A stretch of 60,423 nucleotides of DNA from Christiangramia sp. GTDB lineage: Bacteria; Bacteroidota; Bacteroidia; Flavobacteriales; Flavobacteriaceae. Position 1 is the stretch's first letter. Every line of letters begins with the position of its first letter. The notes beneath the pieces were generated by a model. The model was not told the origin of the DNA, did no database searches, and saw only the letters and a list, made by a program, of their open reading frames with translations. The DNA lies in contig NZ_JAPYPC010000028.1 in the NCBI RefSeq assembly GCF_029937855.1, positions 1-60,423 on the forward strand, written 5' to 3'. The position numbers were made by a program, and so were the translations under genes. Shown piece by piece: positions 52,469 through 60,423 of this stretch.

Positions 52469-53473
52469 ATGGAAATATTAGTTACAGGTGCTGCTGGATT
52501 TATTGGTTTTCATCTATCAAAGAAGTTGGTAGAGGCGGGGCATAATGTGGTTGGTTTGGATAATATCAATAATTATTATGATCCCCAACTAAAGTATGAC
52601 CGGCTAAAAGAACTAGGGATATCAGAGAAGGATGCCATAAAATTCAATAATATCTGCAAGAGCAGTAAATTTAAAAACTTTGAGTTCATAAGATTAAACC
52701 TTGAAGATCGGGGAAATCTTCCAAAATTATGTGCAAGTTTTCGATTTGATAAGGTAGTAAATCTTGCCGCACAGGCAGGAGTTCGTTATAGTATTGAGAA
52801 TCCTGAGGCTTATATAGATAGCAACCTGGTAGGTTTTTCCAATTTACTGGAATGTTGTCGGCAATATAAAGTAAGTCATTTAATTTATGCCAGTAGTTCC
52901 AGCGTATATGGGCAAAATAAAAAAGTTCCTTTTTCTACTGATGATAATGTAGACCATCCTATTAGTTTGTATGCAGCTACCAAGAAAAGTAATGAATTAA
53001 TGGCTTATACCTATAACCATTTATACGGTTTTAAAACTACCGGTTTGCGATTCTTTACCGTTTATGGTCCATTTGGCCGGCCAGATATGGCCATGTTCCT
53101 TTTTACCGATGCGATAATTAATAATAGGCCAATCAAAGTATTTAATGAAGGATATTTAGAGAGAGACTTTACTTATATCGATGATATCGTGGAAGGTGTT
53201 TTTCAGGTGATAAAAAATTCAGATAATAAAAAGGATTATAAACTTTATAATATTGGAAATAGTAAACCGGTGAATTTGCTTGAATTTATTCATGAAATAG
53301 AAAAAAAGCTTGGAATTCTCGCGAAGAAAGAAATGTTGCCAATGCAACCAGGCGATGTGGTAAGAACCTGGGCAGATGTTGGTGCTCTGGAAAAGGATTA
53401 TAATTATAAACCTTCAATGTCTATAAAATTAGGGATTGAAAGATTTATTGAATGGTATAAAAGTTATTATTAA
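52469..53473 (+). CDS. UDP-glucuronate 4-epimerase-like
   Basis: A 334-residue SDR enzyme: NAD loop VTGAAGFIGFHLSKKL, LDNINNYYDPQLKYDRLKEL, the AGVRYSIENPEAYIDSNLVG segment, catalytic SSSSVYGQN and YAATKKSNELMA, TVYGPFGRPDMAMFLF. These are typical of the UDP-GlcA epimerase group (CapI/Lpsl/GAE) that gives UDP-galacturonate. It is separated from ugd by one base, and its substrate is Ugd's product. Confidence 0.92.
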   Translation: MEILVTGAAGFIGFHLSKKLVEAGHNVVGLDNINNYYDPQLKYDRLKELGISEKDAIKFNNICKSSKFKNFEFIRLNLEDRGNLPKLCASFRFDKVVNLAAQAGVRYSIENPEAYIDSNLVGFSNLLECCRQYKVSHLIYASSSSVYGQNKKVPFSTDDNVDHPISLYAATKKSNELMAYTYNHLYGFKTTGLRFFTVYGPFGRPDMAMFLFTDAIINNRPIKVFNEGYLERDFTYIDDIVEGVFQVIKNSDNKKDYKLYNIGNSKPVNLLEFIHEIEKKLGILAKKEMLPMQPGDVVRTWADVGALEKDYNYKPSMSIKLGIERFIEWYKSYY

Positions 53474-53476
53474 TTA

Positions 53477-54616
53477 GTGAAAAAAGTTCTGTATTTATTA
53501 GATACTATTCAAACCGGGGGAGCGGAAAAAAGCCTAGCTCTTATAGCCTCTTATTTTGAAGAATATGAGGCGGTGTTTGTGCAGATATATAAAGGGGATA
53601 ATACAATTCCTCCAAATACCACATTTGAGAATTTCAAAATAGTAAAATTAAATATTATCGGGAAGTATAATTTTAATGAAGCGGTTAAAGCTCTGATTCC
53701 TATTTTTAAGAAGGAAAGACCAACTATCATTCATAGTGCATTATTCCGGGCAGATATTATTTCCCGGAAAATGAAAAGAATTTTCCCGCAAATTCCACTA
53801 ATTAATAGCTTTGTTAATAATTCTTATGCTAAAGTTCGTTATGAAAAACTTGATTTCGAGCATAAAGTGAAATTAAAGTTAATCGAATGGTATGATCGTT
53901 GGACGGCGAATAGAGTGGATCTCTTTTTTTCAAACTCTCATACCATAAGCCAATCTAATATTAAAGCCCTTAAAATAAATCCGGAAAAAGTAAAAGTTGT
54001 ATTTAGAGGAAGAATAATAGATGATATAAAATTACAATCCGGTAAAAAGAAGATTTTTCTCGACGAAATTAACCTCCATAATCGGAATATTTTAATCAAT
54101 GTAAGCCGATTACTCGATCGGAAAGGGCAGCTGGACTTGATAAATGCAATGCCAGGCATTATTAAGAAGTTTCCAAATTCCATCTTATTGATAGTTGGAG
54201 AGGGGAACTATCGGAAGAGGCTGGAAAAGGCGATCAGGGAACTAAATCTAAAAGGCTATGTTTTTTTATTAGGTTATAGAAAGGATATAAATGAATTACT
54301 TTCCATTTCAAATGTTTTTGTGTTTCCTTCATATTATGAAGGCCTACCTGGGGCGTTGATCGAAGCGATGATAGCGGGTATACCGATTGTTTGTTCAGAC
54401 ATTCCAGAAAATAAAGAATGTGTTAATGAAGAATCTGCAGTCTTTTTTAAATCTGGAAATATACATGACCTTGAAAAAAAACTAAAACTTATTTTAGACG
54501 CACCGGAAGAAACATTGGTTAATATTGCTGCACAAAGACAGGCAAGAGAAAAATTTGATGTAAGAAAAATTGCCGCTGAATACGAAAATATATATAAATC
54601 TCTCTATATAAAATAA
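53477..54616 (+). CDS. GT4-family glycosyltransferase
   Basis: A 379-residue GT-B glycosyltransferase. N-terminal LLDTIQTGGAEKSLALIA holds the Gly-rich acceptor loop; the C-terminal half has NVSRLLDRKGQLDLINAMPG and the donor-binding EX7E segment YYEGLPGALIEAMIAGIPIV. Start is GTG, three bases after the preceding stop. Sugar specificity is unknown; it probably adds one of the sugars made in this locus to the lipid-linked repeat unit. Confidence 0.9.
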   Translation: MKKVLYLLDTIQTGGAEKSLALIASYFEEYEAVFVQIYKGDNTIPPNTTFENFKIVKLNIIGKYNFNEAVKALIPIFKKERPTIIHSALFRADIISRKMKRIFPQIPLINSFVNNSYAKVRYEKLDFEHKVKLKLIEWYDRWTANRVDLFFSNSHTISQSNIKALKINPEKVKVVFRGRIIDDIKLQSGKKKIFLDEINLHNRNILINVSRLLDRKGQLDLINAMPGIIKKFPNSILLIVGEGNYRKRLEKAIRELNLKGYVFLLGYRKDINELLSISNVFVFPSYYEGLPGALIEAMIAGIPIVCSDIPENKECVNEESAVFFKSGNIHDLEKKLKLILDAPEETLVNIAAQRQAREKFDVRKIAAEYENIYKSLYIK

Positions 54617-54617
54617 T

Positions 54618-55805
54618 ATGGATATACTTTCACTTATTGGAAGAAATACAGGATTATTTATTGAAGATATTGATAAATATAATGGGAAATTGAATAAAAT
54701 AATTTCTAAATCCTCTTTTCTGGTGCTAGGTGGTGCTGGATCAATTGGACAGGCGGTCACCAAAGAAATATTCAAAAGAAATCCTTTAAAACTACATGTT
54801 GTTGATATTAGTGAAAATAATATGGTAGAGTTGGTAAGGGATATTCGCAGTTCCTTCGGTTATATAGATGGAGATTTCCAAACGTTTGCTCTTGATATTG
54901 GTTCCATGGAGTACGATGCATTTATAGAATCTGATGGTAAGTATGACTATATTTTGAATCTCTCTGCCTTAAAGCATGTGCGTAGTGAGAAAGACCCTTT
55001 TACCTTGATGAGGATGATTGATGTTAATATCTTTAATACAGATAAGACCATTGGGCAGAGTATAAAGAATGGTGCAAACAAATATTTTTGTGTATCCACT
55101 GATAAAGCTGCTAATCCTGTAAATATGATGGGGGCTTCAAAACGTATTATGGAAATGTTTTTAATGCGAAGAAGTGAAAGTATTGAAATATCCACTGCTC
55201 GTTTTGCTAATGTAGCCTTTTCAGATGGTTCTCTTTTGCATGGCTTTAACCAGCGTATTCAGAAAAAACAACCAATTGTTGCACCTAATGATGTCAAACG
55301 TTATTTTGTGACACCTCAGGAAAGTGGAGAACTTTGTCTGATGTCCTGTATTTTTGGCGATAATAGAGATATATTTTTTCCTAAACTTAGTGAGAAACTA
55401 CATTTGATTTCTTTTGCGGATATTGCTGTTAAATTTCTTAAGCAAGGAGGTTATGATGCCTATCTATGTAAAGATGAAGATGAAGCAAGGGATCTTGTCC
55501 ATACTCTTCCACAACAAAATAAATGGCCGTGCTTATTTACCAGAAGTGATACTACCGGAGAAAAGGACTTTGAAGAGTTTTTTACCGATAGTGAGACTCT
55601 GGATCTTGAAAAATTTAAGAATATGGGAATTATAAAAAATGTTTTGAATGTAGAGAATGAAAAACTTCAAAGATTTGAGAATGTGATAGGAGAATTTCGA
55701 AAGAAACATCAATGGACCAAAGAGGAGGTTGTTGAACTTTTCTTTTATATGATTCCAAACTTCGGGCACCTGGAAACAGGAAAGTACCTGGATAGTAAAA
55801 TGTGA
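54618..55805 (+). CDS. nucleotide-sugar 4,6-dehydratase, UDP-GlcNAc type (Polysacc_synt_2/FlaA1-like)
   Basis: A 395-residue SDR enzyme with an N-terminal extension of about 35 residues. NAD loop FLVLGGAGSIGQAVTKEIF, ALKHVRSEKDPFTLMRMIDV, catalytic VSTDKAANPVNMMGASKR (Asp/Lys), and FANVAFSDGSLLHGFNQR. The family makes 4-keto-6-deoxy sugars from UDP-GlcNAc (CapD, PglF, FlaA1, LegB-like). It begins the second amino-sugar block (dehydratase, acetyltransferase, aminotransferase, acetyltransferase, CBS-nucleotidyltransferase). Ends overlapping the next gene (GTGA). Confidence 0.88.
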   Translation: MDILSLIGRNTGLFIEDIDKYNGKLNKIISKSSFLVLGGAGSIGQAVTKEIFKRNPLKLHVVDISENNMVELVRDIRSSFGYIDGDFQTFALDIGSMEYDAFIESDGKYDYILNLSALKHVRSEKDPFTLMRMIDVNIFNTDKTIGQSIKNGANKYFCVSTDKAANPVNMMGASKRIMEMFLMRRSESIEISTARFANVAFSDGSLLHGFNQRIQKKQPIVAPNDVKRYFVTPQESGELCLMSCIFGDNRDIFFPKLSEKLHLISFADIAVKFLKQGGYDAYLCKDEDEARDLVHTLPQQNKWPCLFTRSDTTGEKDFEEFFTDSETLDLEKFKNMGIIKNVLNVENEKLQRFENVIGEFRKKHQWTKEEVVELFFYMIPNFGHLETGKYLDSKM

Positions 55806-56401
55806 GATTAATTTTGAGTGTAAGACCTGAAATAGTTTTAGTTGGTGGGGGTGGTCATTGCCATTCTGTGCTGGATGTTATTGAACAGGAGAATAGGTTC
55901 AAAATAAAGGGAATTATTGATAATAATCTCCCCGTCAATTATAACGTTCTTAACTATAAGATTATAGGTGGGGATGATGATATTGTAGACCTAGCTAAAG
56001 ATCAGGTTTACTTTTTAATTACCGTTGGTCAAATTAAATCTTATTCAGTAAGGCTGAAGCTTGCAAAACTTTTGCAGAAGCATGAATGTAAAATTGCTTC
56101 TGTTGTATCCCCAAGAGCCTATGTTTCCCAACATGCTAAAATTGGGAGGGGTACTGTTGTAATGCATAATGCTTTCGTGAATGCTAATGTAGAAATAGGA
56201 GATTATTGTATTATCAATACTAATGCTGGAATTGAGCATGATTCAATTATAGGAGATTTTTGTCATGTTTCTACAGGAGCCATTGTTAACGGAGATTGCG
56301 AGGTAGGAGATGGATGTTTTTTTGGTAGTAATTCTACCATATCAAACGGAAAGATAGTAAAAACGAATTCTATAATAGGAGCTGGTAGCTTCCATAAATA
56401 A
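55802..56401 (+). CDS. left-handed beta-helix sugar acyltransferase, PglD/NeuD-like (first copy)
   Basis: A 199-residue enzyme. N-terminal Rossmann-like nucleotide-sugar domain (EIVLVGGGGHCHSVLDVIEQ) and a C-terminal left-handed parallel beta-helix of hexapeptide repeats (about 95-195) with the catalytic His in GIEHDSIIGDFCHVSTGA. The PglD/NeuD family acetylates the 4-amino group of UDP-sugars or the 7-/9-OH of sialic-type acids. GTG start overlaps the previous stop. With the aminotransferase after it, N-acetylation of the new amino group is the simplest role. Confidence 0.85.
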   Translation: MRLILSVRPEIVLVGGGGHCHSVLDVIEQENRFKIKGIIDNNLPVNYNVLNYKIIGGDDDIVDLAKDQVYFLITVGQIKSYSVRLKLAKLLQKHECKIASVVSPRAYVSQHAKIGRGTVVMHNAFVNANVEIGDYCIINTNAGIEHDSIIGDFCHVSTGAIVNGDCEVGDGCFFGSNSTISNGKIVKTNSIIGAGSFHK

Positions 56402-56416
56402 GAAAATAACACTTAA

Positions 56417-57550
56417 ATGAACTATAAAATACCATTATTTGATCTTAATTATGACGATAAAGAGGAGAGAGCTGTAATTGACGTTCTGCGCTCCAAATGG
56501 ATTTCTACAGGACCTAAATCACAGAAACTGGAAGAAATGTTTTGTGAATACTTTAATGTTGAACATGCGGTAAGTTTGACCAATTGCACCGTAGCTTTAC
56601 ATCTAGCTATGGAAGTTTTGGAAATCCAGGAGGGCGATGAAGTAATTTGCCCTTCATTTACTTTCGTTGCAACAGCCAACGCAATCAAATATGTTGGAGC
56701 TACTCCAGTATTTGCAGATATAATAAGTGAAGATAATCTTACAATAGATCCTGAACATATAAAAAAACTTATTACAGAAAGAACTAAGGCAATTATTGTA
56801 ATGCATTATGCTGGATTTACCTGTAATATGGACGAAATATTGGCTATTGCCCACGAACATAATCTTAAGGTTGTAGAGGATGCCTGTCACGGCCCTCTCT
56901 CTGAATATAAGGGTAAAAAACTGGGAACAATTGGAGATGTGGGATGTTTCAGTTTCTTTAGCAATAAGAATTTAAGTACAGGAGAGGGGGGGATGTTCCT
57001 CACTAACAACAAGGAACTTGCAGAAAAAGCAAAACTATTACGTTCTCATGGGATGACAACCATGTCTTATAACCGTGCAAAGGGACATTCAACTTCATAT
57101 GATGTGGTGAAATTAGGATACAATTACAGGATGGATGATATAAGAGCTAGCCTTGGTATCGTTCAGTTAGAAAAACTTCCGGAGGATCTGAAGAAAAGAT
57201 ATAAAGTGAGATCAGTTTACGAAAAAGCTTTGGAATCAGTAAATAATGTTATTGTTCCCTTTAAGGATCACCCCTATTTCAGTTCAAACTATATCTTTCC
57301 TATAGTTCTTTCTGAATCGGTAGAAAAGTCAAGAGACGAGATCAGGGATATGCTTCATGATTCTGGAATACAGACCAGTGTCCATTATCCTCCTGTTCAT
57401 TTATTCGATATTTATTATAATGAAGAAGAAAGAGGATTAAGGAAAACCGAATCGATATACAACAGGTTAATTACCCTACCAATGTATGGAAACCTAACAG
57501 AAGAGAAGGTGGAATATATTTCTAAGAAACTAAAAGAGTATGCAGTCTAA
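56417..57550 (+). CDS. DegT/DnrJ/EryC1/StrS sugar aminotransferase (second pathway)
   Basis: A 377-residue PLP enzyme: CPSFTFVATANAIKYVGATP, VVEDACHGPLSEYKGKKLGT, Schiff-base Lys184 in FFSNKNLSTGEGG, and KLGYNYRMDDIRASLGIVQL. It would transaminate the 4-keto sugar from the dehydratase at 54618. Similar to PglE/LegC-type enzymes but not assignable further. It overlaps the next gene by 11 bases. A decayed copy of its 3' third is present at 59286-59644, showing that the region was once duplicated. Confidence 0.88.
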   Translation: MNYKIPLFDLNYDDKEERAVIDVLRSKWISTGPKSQKLEEMFCEYFNVEHAVSLTNCTVALHLAMEVLEIQEGDEVICPSFTFVATANAIKYVGATPVFADIISEDNLTIDPEHIKKLITERTKAIIVMHYAGFTCNMDEILAIAHEHNLKVVEDACHGPLSEYKGKKLGTIGDVGCFSFFSNKNLSTGEGGMFLTNNKELAEKAKLLRSHGMTTMSYNRAKGHSTSYDVVKLGYNYRMDDIRASLGIVQLEKLPEDLKKRYKVRSVYEKALESVNNVIVPFKDHPYFSSNYIFPIVLSESVEKSRDEIRDMLHDSGIQTSVHYPPVHLFDIYYNEEERGLRKTESIYNRLITLPMYGNLTEEKVEYISKKLKEYAV

Positions 57551-58148
57551 ACAAGTTATTCTAATTGGTGGTTTTCATGAGGTTATTGAGCAGATTTTTG
57601 CTTTGGACCTGAAGTTGATGGGAATCATAGATAATAATAAAACGGGAGAATATTATGGTATTCGGGTACTGGGAAGTGATAAGCAAGCTCAATCTATCCT
57701 GGAAAGTTACCTCGATAGTAAGTTGATCATCACTCCGGATAAAGGAATAACACGAAAGAAACTTTTTAAAGAATATTCTCGTTTTAATAATAACTTTTTT
57801 ACACTGGTTTCAAAATATTCAATGATTTCAAGGTTTTCTGATATTGGGAATGGCTGTATAATCAGTCAAAGCACACATATTTCAGCTGGAGTTGAAATTG
57901 GAAAATTTTGTAAAATAAATGTTGGAGCTAACATAATGCACGACTCCAAAATAGGAGATTACTCCACTATAGCTCCCAATGCAGTTGTGCTGGGGAATGT
58001 AGAAATCGGGACAAATTGCTATATAGGGGCAAATAGCACAATTATGCCAAATGTGAAAATTGGGGATAATGTGACCGTTGGTGCAGGAGCCGTTGTTACC
58101 AAAAATGTCGAGAATAATAAAATAGTTAAGGGGATACCCGCCAAGTAA
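57540..58148 (+). CDS. left-handed beta-helix sugar acyltransferase, PglD/NeuD-like (second copy)
   Basis: A 202-residue acyltransferase with the same architecture as the gene at 55802: N-terminal Rossmann-like part (QVILIGGFHEVIEQIFALDL) and C-terminal hexapeptide helix (about 90-200) with NVGANIMHDSKIGDYSTIAP carrying the likely catalytic His. The two are paralogues at the fold level but clearly diverged. In the duplicated cassette downstream a formyltransferase takes this position. Overlaps the aminotransferase by 11 bases. Confidence 0.85.
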   Translation: MQSKQVILIGGFHEVIEQIFALDLKLMGIIDNNKTGEYYGIRVLGSDKQAQSILESYLDSKLIITPDKGITRKKLFKEYSRFNNNFFTLVSKYSMISRFSDIGNGCIISQSTHISAGVEIGKFCKINVGANIMHDSKIGDYSTIAPNAVVLGNVEIGTNCYIGANSTIMPNVKIGDNVTVGAGAVVTKNVENNKIVKGIPAK

Positions 58149-58155
58149 AAGATAT

Positions 58156-59232
58156 ATGGATAATTGGAAGAAATTAATAATTGAGCCCGAAAAAAACATA
58201 AGGTCTGCTATGCAGCATATGGATGAGGTAAGATCAAAACTACTTTTTGTATGTAATAATAATAAGTTCATGTCGGTTCTGAGTATTGGTGATATCCAGA
58301 GAGCAATACTATCTAATCATTCATTGGATGCAGAAATAAATTCCATTTTAAGGGATAGGGTTATTATTGCATCAGATCAGGATAATGTAGAAGATATTCG
58401 TAATCTTATGCTTCAGCATCGTATTGAAGCTATGCCAATAGTTGATGATGAGAAAAATGTTGCAGATGTAATTTTCTGGGATCAGATTTTTTCTGAAAAA
58501 AAAGAGAGGGTGGATACACTTCCTGATATTCCTGTAGTGATTATGGCAGGGGGGAAGGGAACCCGTTTAAAACCTATTACAAATATTATCCCTAAACCCC
58601 TTATTCCTCTTGGGGAGAAACCGATATTGGAATGGATAATAGATTCTTTTAATGAAGTTGGGGTAACGAATTTTCATCTGACAGTAAATTACAAACAAGA
58701 TATGATTCGTAGCTATTTTGCGCATCCATCCGAAACGAATTATAACATCAGTTATTTTGAAGAGAACAAACCTCTTGGTACTGCCGGGAGCCTTCATCTT
58801 TTAAAAGGTAAGCTAAAAGAAACTTTTTTTGTTACTAATTGCGATATCCTCATCAAGGATGATTATTCTGAAATGCTGAAATATCATAAGTCTAATGGAA
58901 ATGAACTCACAGCGGTAAGTGCAGTAAAGCACTTTAAGATCCCTTATGGTACCCTTGAGTTTGGAGAGAATGGTGTATTGGAAAAAATAAAGGAAAAGCC
59001 TGAGTATACCTTTTTTATTAATGCAGGAATGTATATCCTTGAACCTCACCTTCTGGAGGAGATTCCTGAAGATGAATTTTTCCACATTACTGCACTTATT
59101 GAAAAGATAATGGAAAGGAATGGAAAAGTGGGAATTTTCCCTGTAAGTGAAGGGAGTTGGATGGATATTGGTCAATGGGATGAGTATAATAAGACCTCAA
59201 AGAAATTGGGTTTTGGCGGAATAAATCTGTAG
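58156..59232 (+). CDS. sugar nucleotidyltransferase with N-terminal CBS pair
   Basis: A 358-residue protein. Residues 1-115 form two CBS repeats (AMQHMDEVRSKLLFVCNNNK and LMLQHRIEAMPIVDDEKNVA), which usually bind adenosyl ligands. Residues about 124-350 are a GT-A nucleotidyltransferase with PVVIMAGGKGTRLKPITNII, PKPLIPLGEKPILEWIID, TNCDILIKDDY and SWMDIGQWDEY. The layout matches PtmE-like guanylyltransferases of legionaminic acid pathways and related enzymes. The first 62 bases recur at 60362, showing a duplicated gene. Confidence 0.85.
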   Translation: MDNWKKLIIEPEKNIRSAMQHMDEVRSKLLFVCNNNKFMSVLSIGDIQRAILSNHSLDAEINSILRDRVIIASDQDNVEDIRNLMLQHRIEAMPIVDDEKNVADVIFWDQIFSEKKERVDTLPDIPVVIMAGGKGTRLKPITNIIPKPLIPLGEKPILEWIIDSFNEVGVTNFHLTVNYKQDMIRSYFAHPSETNYNISYFEENKPLGTAGSLHLLKGKLKETFFVTNCDILIKDDYSEMLKYHKSNGNELTAVSAVKHFKIPYGTLEFGENGVLEKIKEKPEYTFFINAGMYILEPHLLEEIPEDEFFHITALIEKIMERNGKVGIFPVSEGSWMDIGQWDEYNKTSKKLGFGGINL

Positions 59233-59285
59233 ATTTTGAAGAAAGAAACGTTCTTGTCACCGGGATAGGGCAGGTAAATTACAAT

Positions 59286-59644
59286 TATATAGTGAAATTA
59301 GAAAAAGACTTCTGGAGACCTGAAAAAAGAAATAATGTGAGATCGGCTTACGAAATTGCTTTGGAGTCAGTAGATTATATTCTTGTTCCCTTTAAGAGTC
59401 ATTCCTATTTCAGTTCAAACTATATCTTTCCTTTAGTTCTTTCTGAAACTATAGAAAAGTTAAGAGACGGGATCAGGGATATGCTTCATAAATCTGTAAT
59501 ACAGACCAGTATCTTTGCACTTTGTCCATTTATTCCATATTTATAAAGAAAAAAAGATAGAGAGTTGAAATAAACAGAACCGGTTTATAAAAGATTAATT
59601 ACCTATCCATGTATGGTAATTTAAAGAATAAAGATGTTAATTAA
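59286..59644 (+). pseudogene. decayed 3' fragment of the sugar aminotransferase
   Basis: Matches the 3' third of the aminotransferase gene (57161-57530). Conserved runs include TTCAGTTCAAACTATATCTT and GATCAGGGATATGCTTCAT, then a frameshift and in-frame stop near 59544, and degraded remains such as TTAATTACC...ATGTATGGTAAT. The segment lacks the PLP-binding Lys and everything upstream, so no active enzyme can be made. A residual open frame (59292-59546) would code for 84 residues but is a relic. Confidence 0.85.
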
Positions 59645-59676
59645 ATTACTCAAATCTTTAATGATATTTTAAATAA

Positions 59677-60318
59677 ATGAATATAATTATTTATACTGAT
59701 TCAGTGAATAGTTGGTTTGTGCCGTATGGTAATAAATTAAAAAAAGCATTGTTGGAACAGGGACATAGCGTAAAGTATGTATACAAATCACAGGAATTAT
59801 ATCCCTGTGATATTATGTTTCTACTTAGTTGTACTAAACTTCTTTCAAGGAAATATCTTCAACCAAATAAAAATAATATAGTAGTTCATGCTAGTGATTT
59901 ACCTCATGGAAAAGGTTTTTCTCCCATGCAATGGCAAATTTTAGAAGGTAAAAATCAAATACCCATAACCCTATTCGAAGCTGTTGAGGGGGTGGATTCT
60001 GGTCCTTTTTATTTAAAGGATATGATAGAATTTGAAGGGCATGAATTACTTAATGAACTTCGGGAAAAAATGGCATTAAAAATTATCCAAATGTGTCTAA
60101 GATTCGTGAATGAATATGGTAAACTCAGATCACAACCTCAAATTGGCGAATCCTCTCTTTATAAAAAAAGAATGACTCAAGATGACCAGTTAGATATCTC
60201 AAAAAGTATAGCTAGTCAGTTTAACCATTTCCGAATTGCACATAATGAAAATCATCCTCTTTATTTTAAATATTTAGGTCATAAATACTATTTGAAAATC
60301 ATAAAAGAAAGTAATTAA
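59677..60318 (+). CDS. small formyltransferase-family protein, probable sugar N-formyltransferase
   Basis: A 213-residue protein of the formyl_trans fold. It has VVHASDLPHGKGFSPMQWQI (His71), as in small sugar N-formyltransferases, and EGVDSGPFY with the catalytic Asp107. The canonical N-x-H spacing of methionyl-tRNA formyltransferase is not kept, and the tRNA-binding C-terminal domain is missing. It probably transfers a formyl group from 10-formyl-tetrahydrofolate to an amino sugar. It lies between the aminotransferase relic and the second CBS-nucleotidyltransferase, replacing the acetyltransferase of the upstream cassette. Confidence 0.75.
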   Translation: MNIIIYTDSVNSWFVPYGNKLKKALLEQGHSVKYVYKSQELYPCDIMFLLSCTKLLSRKYLQPNKNNIVVHASDLPHGKGFSPMQWQILEGKNQIPITLFEAVEGVDSGPFYLKDMIEFEGHELLNELREKMALKIIQMCLRFVNEYGKLRSQPQIGESSLYKKRMTQDDQLDISKSIASQFNHFRIAHNENHPLYFKYLGHKYYLKIIKESN

Positions 60319-60361
60319 ATATTCTTTTTTCAAATGTAGTTTTAAATAAAAAAATATCCGT

Positions 60362-60423
60362 ATGAACGATTGGAAGAAATTAATAATTGAGCCCGAAAAA
60401 AACATAAGGTCTGCTATGCAGCA
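60362..60423 (+). CDS. second CBS-nucleotidyltransferase, 5' end only (cut by window edge)
   Basis: Twenty codons (MNDWKKLIIEPEKNIRSAMQ) plus two bases. The 55 bases 60369-60423 are identical to 58163-58217 of the gene at 58156; only codons 2 and 3 differ. Whether the rest of the gene is intact cannot be seen. The identity suggests a recent duplication or gene conversion. Confidence 0.8.
   Translation, partial: MNDWKKLIIEPEKNIRSAMQ

Follow-up and report, generated by a model that had tools for sequence, protein, structure and literature searches.

Two enzymes that could acylate the same amino sugar lie close together in one surface-polysaccharide locus of a marine, Christiangramia-like bacterium, which raises the question of whether the strain keeps two working gene cassettes for two differently N-acylated sugars. 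The window, by which we mean the whole 60,423-nucleotide stretch analysed, is the complete contig C72:1-60423 of a 3.9 Mb genome in 80 contigs (completeness 99.89, contamination 0.62). The nearest relatives of the locus belong to Christiangramia and Gramella, in the Flavobacteriaceae. The original prediction had described a cassette A (aminotransferase, acetyltransferase-like gene, CBS-nucleotidyltransferase), and both its coordinates and the family profiles agree with that order. The proposed cassette B (decayed aminotransferase, formyltransferase, start of a second nucleotidyltransferase) is borne out by an aminotransferase remnant of 87% identity, a PF00551 match and a nucleotidyltransferase start at 60362. 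The further claim that each sugar is activated by its own nucleotidyltransferase fails, because copy 2 has an out-of-frame deletion of 694 bases. The gene layout thus shows a predicted working acetyl cassette and an eroding formyl remnant in tandem. With relatives that have one version or the other, it appears to be an everyday instance of gene shuffling at a locus for surface sugars, captured at one moment.

The duplication left a recognisable join. A decayed scrap from the 5' end of a glycosyltransferase gene, whose intact form lies on contig C42, meets the aminotransferase tail at 59300-59325, within a short stretch common to both genes. This fragment of the downstream glycosyltransferase (59233-59312) had been missed in the earlier description. 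The join marks a duplication that begins within the aminotransferase gene and extends a short way into the glycosyltransferase gene. Beyond it, positions 59325-59513 of the remnant have the quoted identity to 57194-57382 of the intact gene. The two nucleotidyltransferase copies had been said to be identical over 55 bases, and the figure is exact (60369-60423 = 58163-58217). All 26 repeated 30-mers of the window (26/26) fall in this repeat, which is therefore not due to chance.

The sequence past the end of the window was sought on other contigs. The end of C42 (86332) carries 55 bases equal to window positions 58283-58337, departs from the intact gene there, and then continues with 217 bases equal to 59032-59248 (217/217). 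The length of 55 is probably the assembler overlap; from the exact sharing at both contig ends we infer a de Bruijn overlap of 55 around a collapsed 175-base repeat (58163-58337). C42 very probably continues C72, giving a linear path C72, repeat, C42, in which the 2.2-kb unit is traversed at least once. Downstream of the junction, the GT56-like glycosyltransferase is intact (PF07429, 26.9 bits, cut-off 25), and a flippase gene comes next. C. bathymodioli (L026) and G. jeungdoensis (L047) have relatives of this pair after the nucleotidyltransferase, while in C. oceanisediminis (L048) the glycosyltransferase likewise follows, and then a more distant flippase (30%).

Along this path, the expectation that similarity would persist past 60423 holds in part. 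The second copy is inferred to be identical as far as 58337 and is seen again over 59032-59248, whereas the 694 bases between the shared parts are lost. This number leaves a remainder of 1 on division by 3, and in the resulting open reading frame of 86 codons the first 60 residues are native and the next 26 are out of frame before a stop; 120 bases of it come from the predicted collapsed repeat. On the only continuation found, the second nucleotidyltransferase is a predicted pseudogene. Of the five matches that a protein search of the strain's own genome returned, one was the intact copy, two were parts of copy 2 and the remaining two were weak (25–26% identity); there is just one intact nucleotidyltransferase of this kind in the genome. 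The downstream unit contains neither an intact aminotransferase, the remnant being interrupted by stops and frameshifts, nor an intact nucleotidyltransferase. The identical first 55 bases might have led one to expect two functional cassettes that each have a nucleotidyltransferase and together produce two N-acylated sugars. We regard this as barely credible, given the frameshifting deletion on the sole continuation found and given that the other genome matches are weak or are the same pieces.

An assembly artefact or a mixed population was also weighed. The formyltransferase unit might come from a second strain or a rearranged subpopulation, with the chromosome itself lacking the tandem. The contig does break within a repeat, and the 2.2-kb unit might exist in more than one copy, as the assembly comes without read depth. 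Positions 59032-60423, however, form one assembled stretch in which the scar and the formyltransferase follow copy 1, both contig ends fit a single linear path, and the contamination and completeness values are those given above. We consider this explanation improbable. The features are collected in Table 1.

Table 1. Predicted genes and gene remnants of the locus, in window coordinates
Feature	Position	Strand	Evidence and remarks
NDP-sugar (nucleoside diphosphate sugar) 4,6-dehydratase (Polysacc_synt_2), shared upstream gene	54618..55805	+	PF02719 144.9 bits; full-length solved relative 3pvz, E 2.3e-214
NeuD1, first NeuD/PglD-type acyltransferase	55802..56401	+	TIGR03570 185 bits, cut-off 160.8
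Intact DegT/PseC/LegC-like aminotransferase	56417..57550	+	PF01041 399.6 bits
NeuD2, acetyltransferase-type slot occupant	57540..58148	+	TIGR03570 171.8 bits, above the curated cut-off of 160.8; 81% to L048:10096-10704
Intact CBS-nucleotidyltransferase, copy 1	58156..59232	+	PF00483 (NTP_transferase) 129.5 bits, PF00571 (CBS) 36.3 bits
Decayed 5' end of the C42 glycosyltransferase (scrap), duplication join	59233..59312	+	77/80 aligned bases equal, 2 deletions
Aminotransferase remnant	59313..59676	+	Own-like to ~59555, C. bathymodioli-like tail beyond; stops, frameshifts
Intact short formyltransferase, alternative slot occupant	59677..60318	+	PF00551 (Formyl_trans_N) 40.1 bits, above the gathering score of 26.1
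Start of second nucleotidyltransferase, predicted pseudogene continued at the C42 end	60362..60423	+	694-base deletion

How the formyltransferase came to stand in the second unit is best explained, in our view, by starting from the acetyl form. Duplication across the short stretch common to both genes would first have copied the part of the locus that begins within the aminotransferase and ends shortly after the start of the glycosyltransferase. A formyltransferase-bearing tract of some 0.8 kb would then have replaced NeuD2 in the downstream copy, via recombination in the flanking genes. The downstream copy would have decayed afterwards, leaving the glycosyltransferase scrap, the aminotransferase tail, an intact formyltransferase and a nucleotidyltransferase pseudogene, with the intact glycosyltransferase next. 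We give an even chance to this explanation as a whole, that is, tandem cassettes with the acetyl form first, tract replacement, decay and the chemistry proposed below.

Replacement of a tract should be readable at its edges, and the remnant proved to be a mosaic. Test sites were those at which the strain's own aminotransferase equals that of C. oceanisediminis but differs from that of C. bathymodioli. Decided sites were own-like and C. bathymodioli-like in a ratio of 32:0 up to 59555 and 5:11 after it (Fisher's test, 2e-7, at a break point of 59555/59556 picked after the data had been seen); 12 further sites matched neither, 3 before 59556 and 9 after. We rejected the idea that the remnant is no more than the gene of the formyl-type relative, since the own gene is nearer overall (258/340 vs 229/340 columns) and the likeness to the formyl type is confined to the tail. 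At the other edge, nucleotidyltransferase copy 2 opens with 12 bases of C. bathymodioli and copy 1 with those of C. oceanisediminis; beyond them, the copies are alike. As the remnant tail and these 12 bases both resemble C. bathymodioli, the tract from about 59560 to about 60368 would have formyl-lineage flanks.

Relatives supply both forms as single cassettes. Three were found when, as the original prediction had proposed, related strains were compared, within a genus sample of 24 genomes, own included. The nucleotidyltransferase occurs at 85% identity or more in 4 of the 24, and the dehydratase at an expect value (E) up to 1e-100 in 7. C. oceanisediminis GC03-9 (L048/L051) and C. bathymodioli BOM4 (L026/L050) share the order dehydratase, NeuD1, aminotransferase, slot gene, CBS-nucleotidyltransferase and glycosyltransferase. 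The former has one acetyl cassette with NeuD2 (81%) in the slot, the latter one formyl cassette with the formyltransferase (64%) there. Each of these strains has one slot gene, whereas the window strain has both, the formyl side as a remnant. G. jeungdoensis has a different aminotransferase (30%) and a longer, different formyltransferase in the slot. The comparison shows the putative acetyl and formyl enzymes as alternative occupants of one slot in relatives, and such exchange is not peculiar to this strain. Among 397 family genomes drawn, the short formyltransferase passed E 1e-30 in 3, own included, and NeuD2 passed 1e-40 in the own genome only, although the C. oceanisediminis genome with its NeuD2 was evidently not in the draw. 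The join, the mosaic flanks and these single-cassette relatives support the core of the predicted history, in which a duplicated cassette has a formyltransferase in the acetyltransferase's place and a decayed aminotransferase. The duplication was partial.

Several observations weigh against our account. Besides the choice of the break point, the likeness of the remnant tail to the formyl lineage is weak, with 40/66 bases of the last block matching C. bathymodioli and 36/66 matching the own gene. The C42 join is a probable one, based on overlap and synteny. In a single-sequence query, the best solved relatives of the formyltransferase are named methionyl-tRNA formyltransferases, the first being 1zgh, with no sugar enzymes but ArnA. 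The duplicated pieces have also diverged unequally, by 25/189 bases in the aminotransferase, 3/80 in the glycosyltransferase scrap and 0/272 observed bases in the nucleotidyltransferase. A single event would not produce these three values, which call for gene conversion or a further event. The contrast between aminotransferase and scrap (p = 0.027) points away from a single duplication of an acetyl cassette and suggests that the intact aminotransferase may have come from elsewhere. Of the 25 differences, 13 fall on the remnant branch and 9 on that of the own gene, with 3 left unassigned, and 9 are many for a constrained gene.

The unequal divergence also favors the reverse order, in which the duplicated cassette already held the formyltransferase and the acetyl form (aminotransferase and NeuD2) entered the upstream copy later, by homologous recombination. 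As far as 59555, the own gene stands apart from both relatives at 18 sites; the remnant agrees with the own gene at 10 of them and with the relatives at 8. The C42 flippase is nearer the formyl-type relatives (59%, 56%) than the acetyl-type one (30%). The C42 glycosyltransferase, on the other hand, is nearer the acetyl-type relative (63% vs 49% and 48%), and the remnant is own-like at 32/32 decided sites before 59556. Synonymous differences between remnant and intact aminotransferase are few (3/21 differing codons). Counted by codon, the 25 differences are synonymous in 3 cases and nonsynonymous in 18; for the own gene compared with that of C. oceanisediminis the counts are 13 and 11 (p = 0.011). 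Such a balance is expected if the own gene was copied recently and the copy then decayed. We find the reverse order doubtful; the acetyl-first order of the original prediction keeps a slight lead, with two weak tests pointing opposite ways. Under either order, the identity of the two nucleotidyltransferase copies would be accounted for by gene conversion between them.

The next question is whether the formyltransferase still works. All of its 213 codons are open, and it aligns end to end with that of C. bathymodioli (64% over 213 residues). Differences from this relative number 63/35/104 at codon positions 1/2/3, a pattern that shows older constraint on the predicted enzyme. Recent maintenance is plausible, because the adjoining upstream remnant has gaps and stops. 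The gene may nevertheless be dead as well, silent or inactive and simply not broken yet, which we judge a real possibility, if somewhat short of even. It sits between two pseudogenes, and one catalytic residue is replaced. In Fmt and ArnA, the catalytic triad is Asn-His-Asp; here His71 and Asp107 are kept and Val69 stands at the Asn place. The short subfamily of about 210 residues (59677-60318, L026:9870-10517 and L059:10470-11102) has an NIVVH motif, with Val for Asn in 3/3. As Val also occurs in intact relatives, it is no defect of the window copy, and the full-length alignment contrasts with the several gaps and stops of the remnant just upstream. A scan of the window for a Bacteroidota-type promoter pattern gave 3 matches vs 4.48 expected by chance, with 0 inside the cassettes.

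The substrate of the formyltransferase would follow from its gene position, because the solved matches differ between the tRNA enzymes of the single-sequence query and the sugar formyltransferases that emerge with a profile query, which takes in the more distant G. jeungdoensis protein. A structure model from 2 sequences reached a mean predicted local distance difference test score (pLDDT) of 46.8. Genome G312, which represents another genus of the family, has a formyltransferase relative (42%) directly before a NeuB gene (L059:10470-12153), an arrangement that suggests N-formyl nonulosonic acids there.

Across the locus, the combination of dehydratase, DegT aminotransferase, hexapeptide acyltransferase and PF00551 formyltransferase points to a 4-acylamido-4,6-dideoxy sugar nucleotide. 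The aminotransferase scores below the PseC (337.8 vs 423.5) and LegC family (279.5 vs 420) cut-offs. The nearest solved structures of NeuD2 are VioB, perosamine N-acetyltransferase and PglD-type enzymes. Nucleotidyltransferase copy 1 has the PtmE-type architecture, an N-terminal CBS region and an NTP_transferase domain, with 90%, 86% and 85% identity to the genes of C. oceanisediminis, G. jeungdoensis and C. bathymodioli. Upstream, a glycosyltransferase gene (53477-54616) lies between an epimerase (52469-53473) and the dehydratase; these two are only 24 bases apart in C. oceanisediminis. In three genomes of the genus (L071, L072, L073), NeuB and NeuA genes accompany a 30% relative of the nucleotidyltransferase and the same dehydratase (80–81%), which looks like a fixed part with exchanged neighbors.

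From these predicted activities, we propose that the nucleotidyltransferase makes an NDP-amino sugar, which the dehydratase and aminotransferase would convert to the 4-amino-4,6-dideoxy form. NeuD2 would acetylate the new amine, or the formyltransferase formylate it, and the GT56-like enzyme would transfer the acylated sugar. In the legionaminic scheme of Campylobacter, PtmE reportedly makes the nucleotide sugar before the dehydratase, aminotransferase and acyltransferase act; its substrates are glucosamine-1-phosphate and guanosine triphosphate. Because PtmE acts before the acyl step in that scheme, a nucleotidyltransferase that activates an already N-acylated sugar seems unlikely here. If the enzyme acts first, one copy suffices for both acyl branches, and the single intact nucleotidyltransferase would serve both, provided that the formyltransferase is expressed.

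The locus resembles legionaminic acid clusters, in which a PtmE-type protein with CBS and NTP_transferase domains likewise has a dehydratase, a DegT aminotransferase and a NeuD as neighbors. A PtmE of 352 residues is listed for a Plesiomonas legionaminic cluster (PMC4481668). A 40–42% relative of the window nucleotidyltransferase belongs to a NeuB/NeuC/NeuA cluster of a Tissierellales metagenome-assembled genome. Unlike in legionaminic clusters, NeuB, NeuC and NeuA were not found in the last 10 kb of the window or in the 16 kb read of C42. The only NeuB match of the genome is on contig C50, beside its own NeuC and NeuA, and we set aside the idea that the locus feeds a nonulosonic acid synthase. 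This separate NeuA, NeuC and NeuB set (L064:7500-10984), with no dehydratase or aminotransferase among the surrounding open reading frames listed, is probably for a sialic-type acid. As the locus lacks NeuB, direct use of the sugar nucleotide by a glycosyltransferase is likely. VioB/VioF, WlaRD and PseJ, named from matches in the PDB, come from amino-sugar pathways in which, as proposed for the window, one sugar amine can receive its acyl group either from a hexapeptide acetyltransferase or from a PF00551 formyltransferase. VioB and VioF are an acetyl/formyl pairing for one amine. Such alternatives sit in different strains or pathways, whereas the window has the two in the same genome, some 1.5 kb from each other.

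A more far-reaching reading, which we consider unlikely, is that the locus is an acetyl/formyl chimaera. One NDP-4-amino sugar, made by one nucleotidyltransferase and one aminotransferase, would be shared by two competing N-acyl enzymes, and the surface glycan would be mixed. Recombination between the repeated nucleotidyltransferase 3' ends would cleanly remove the formyl enzyme and leave a pure acetyl locus, so that the present state would be an intermediate in a change of surface type.

The locus carries a warning: when two copies agree at a contig end over just the length of the assembly overlap, the match gives no information on the intactness of the copy beyond. It also shows how an N-acyl switch may proceed in a surface-sugar cluster, where one slot between fixed genes is swapped via flanking recombination and readable scars are left. 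If the formyltransferase is active, a single strain would display the sugar in two forms, with possible effects on phage attachment.

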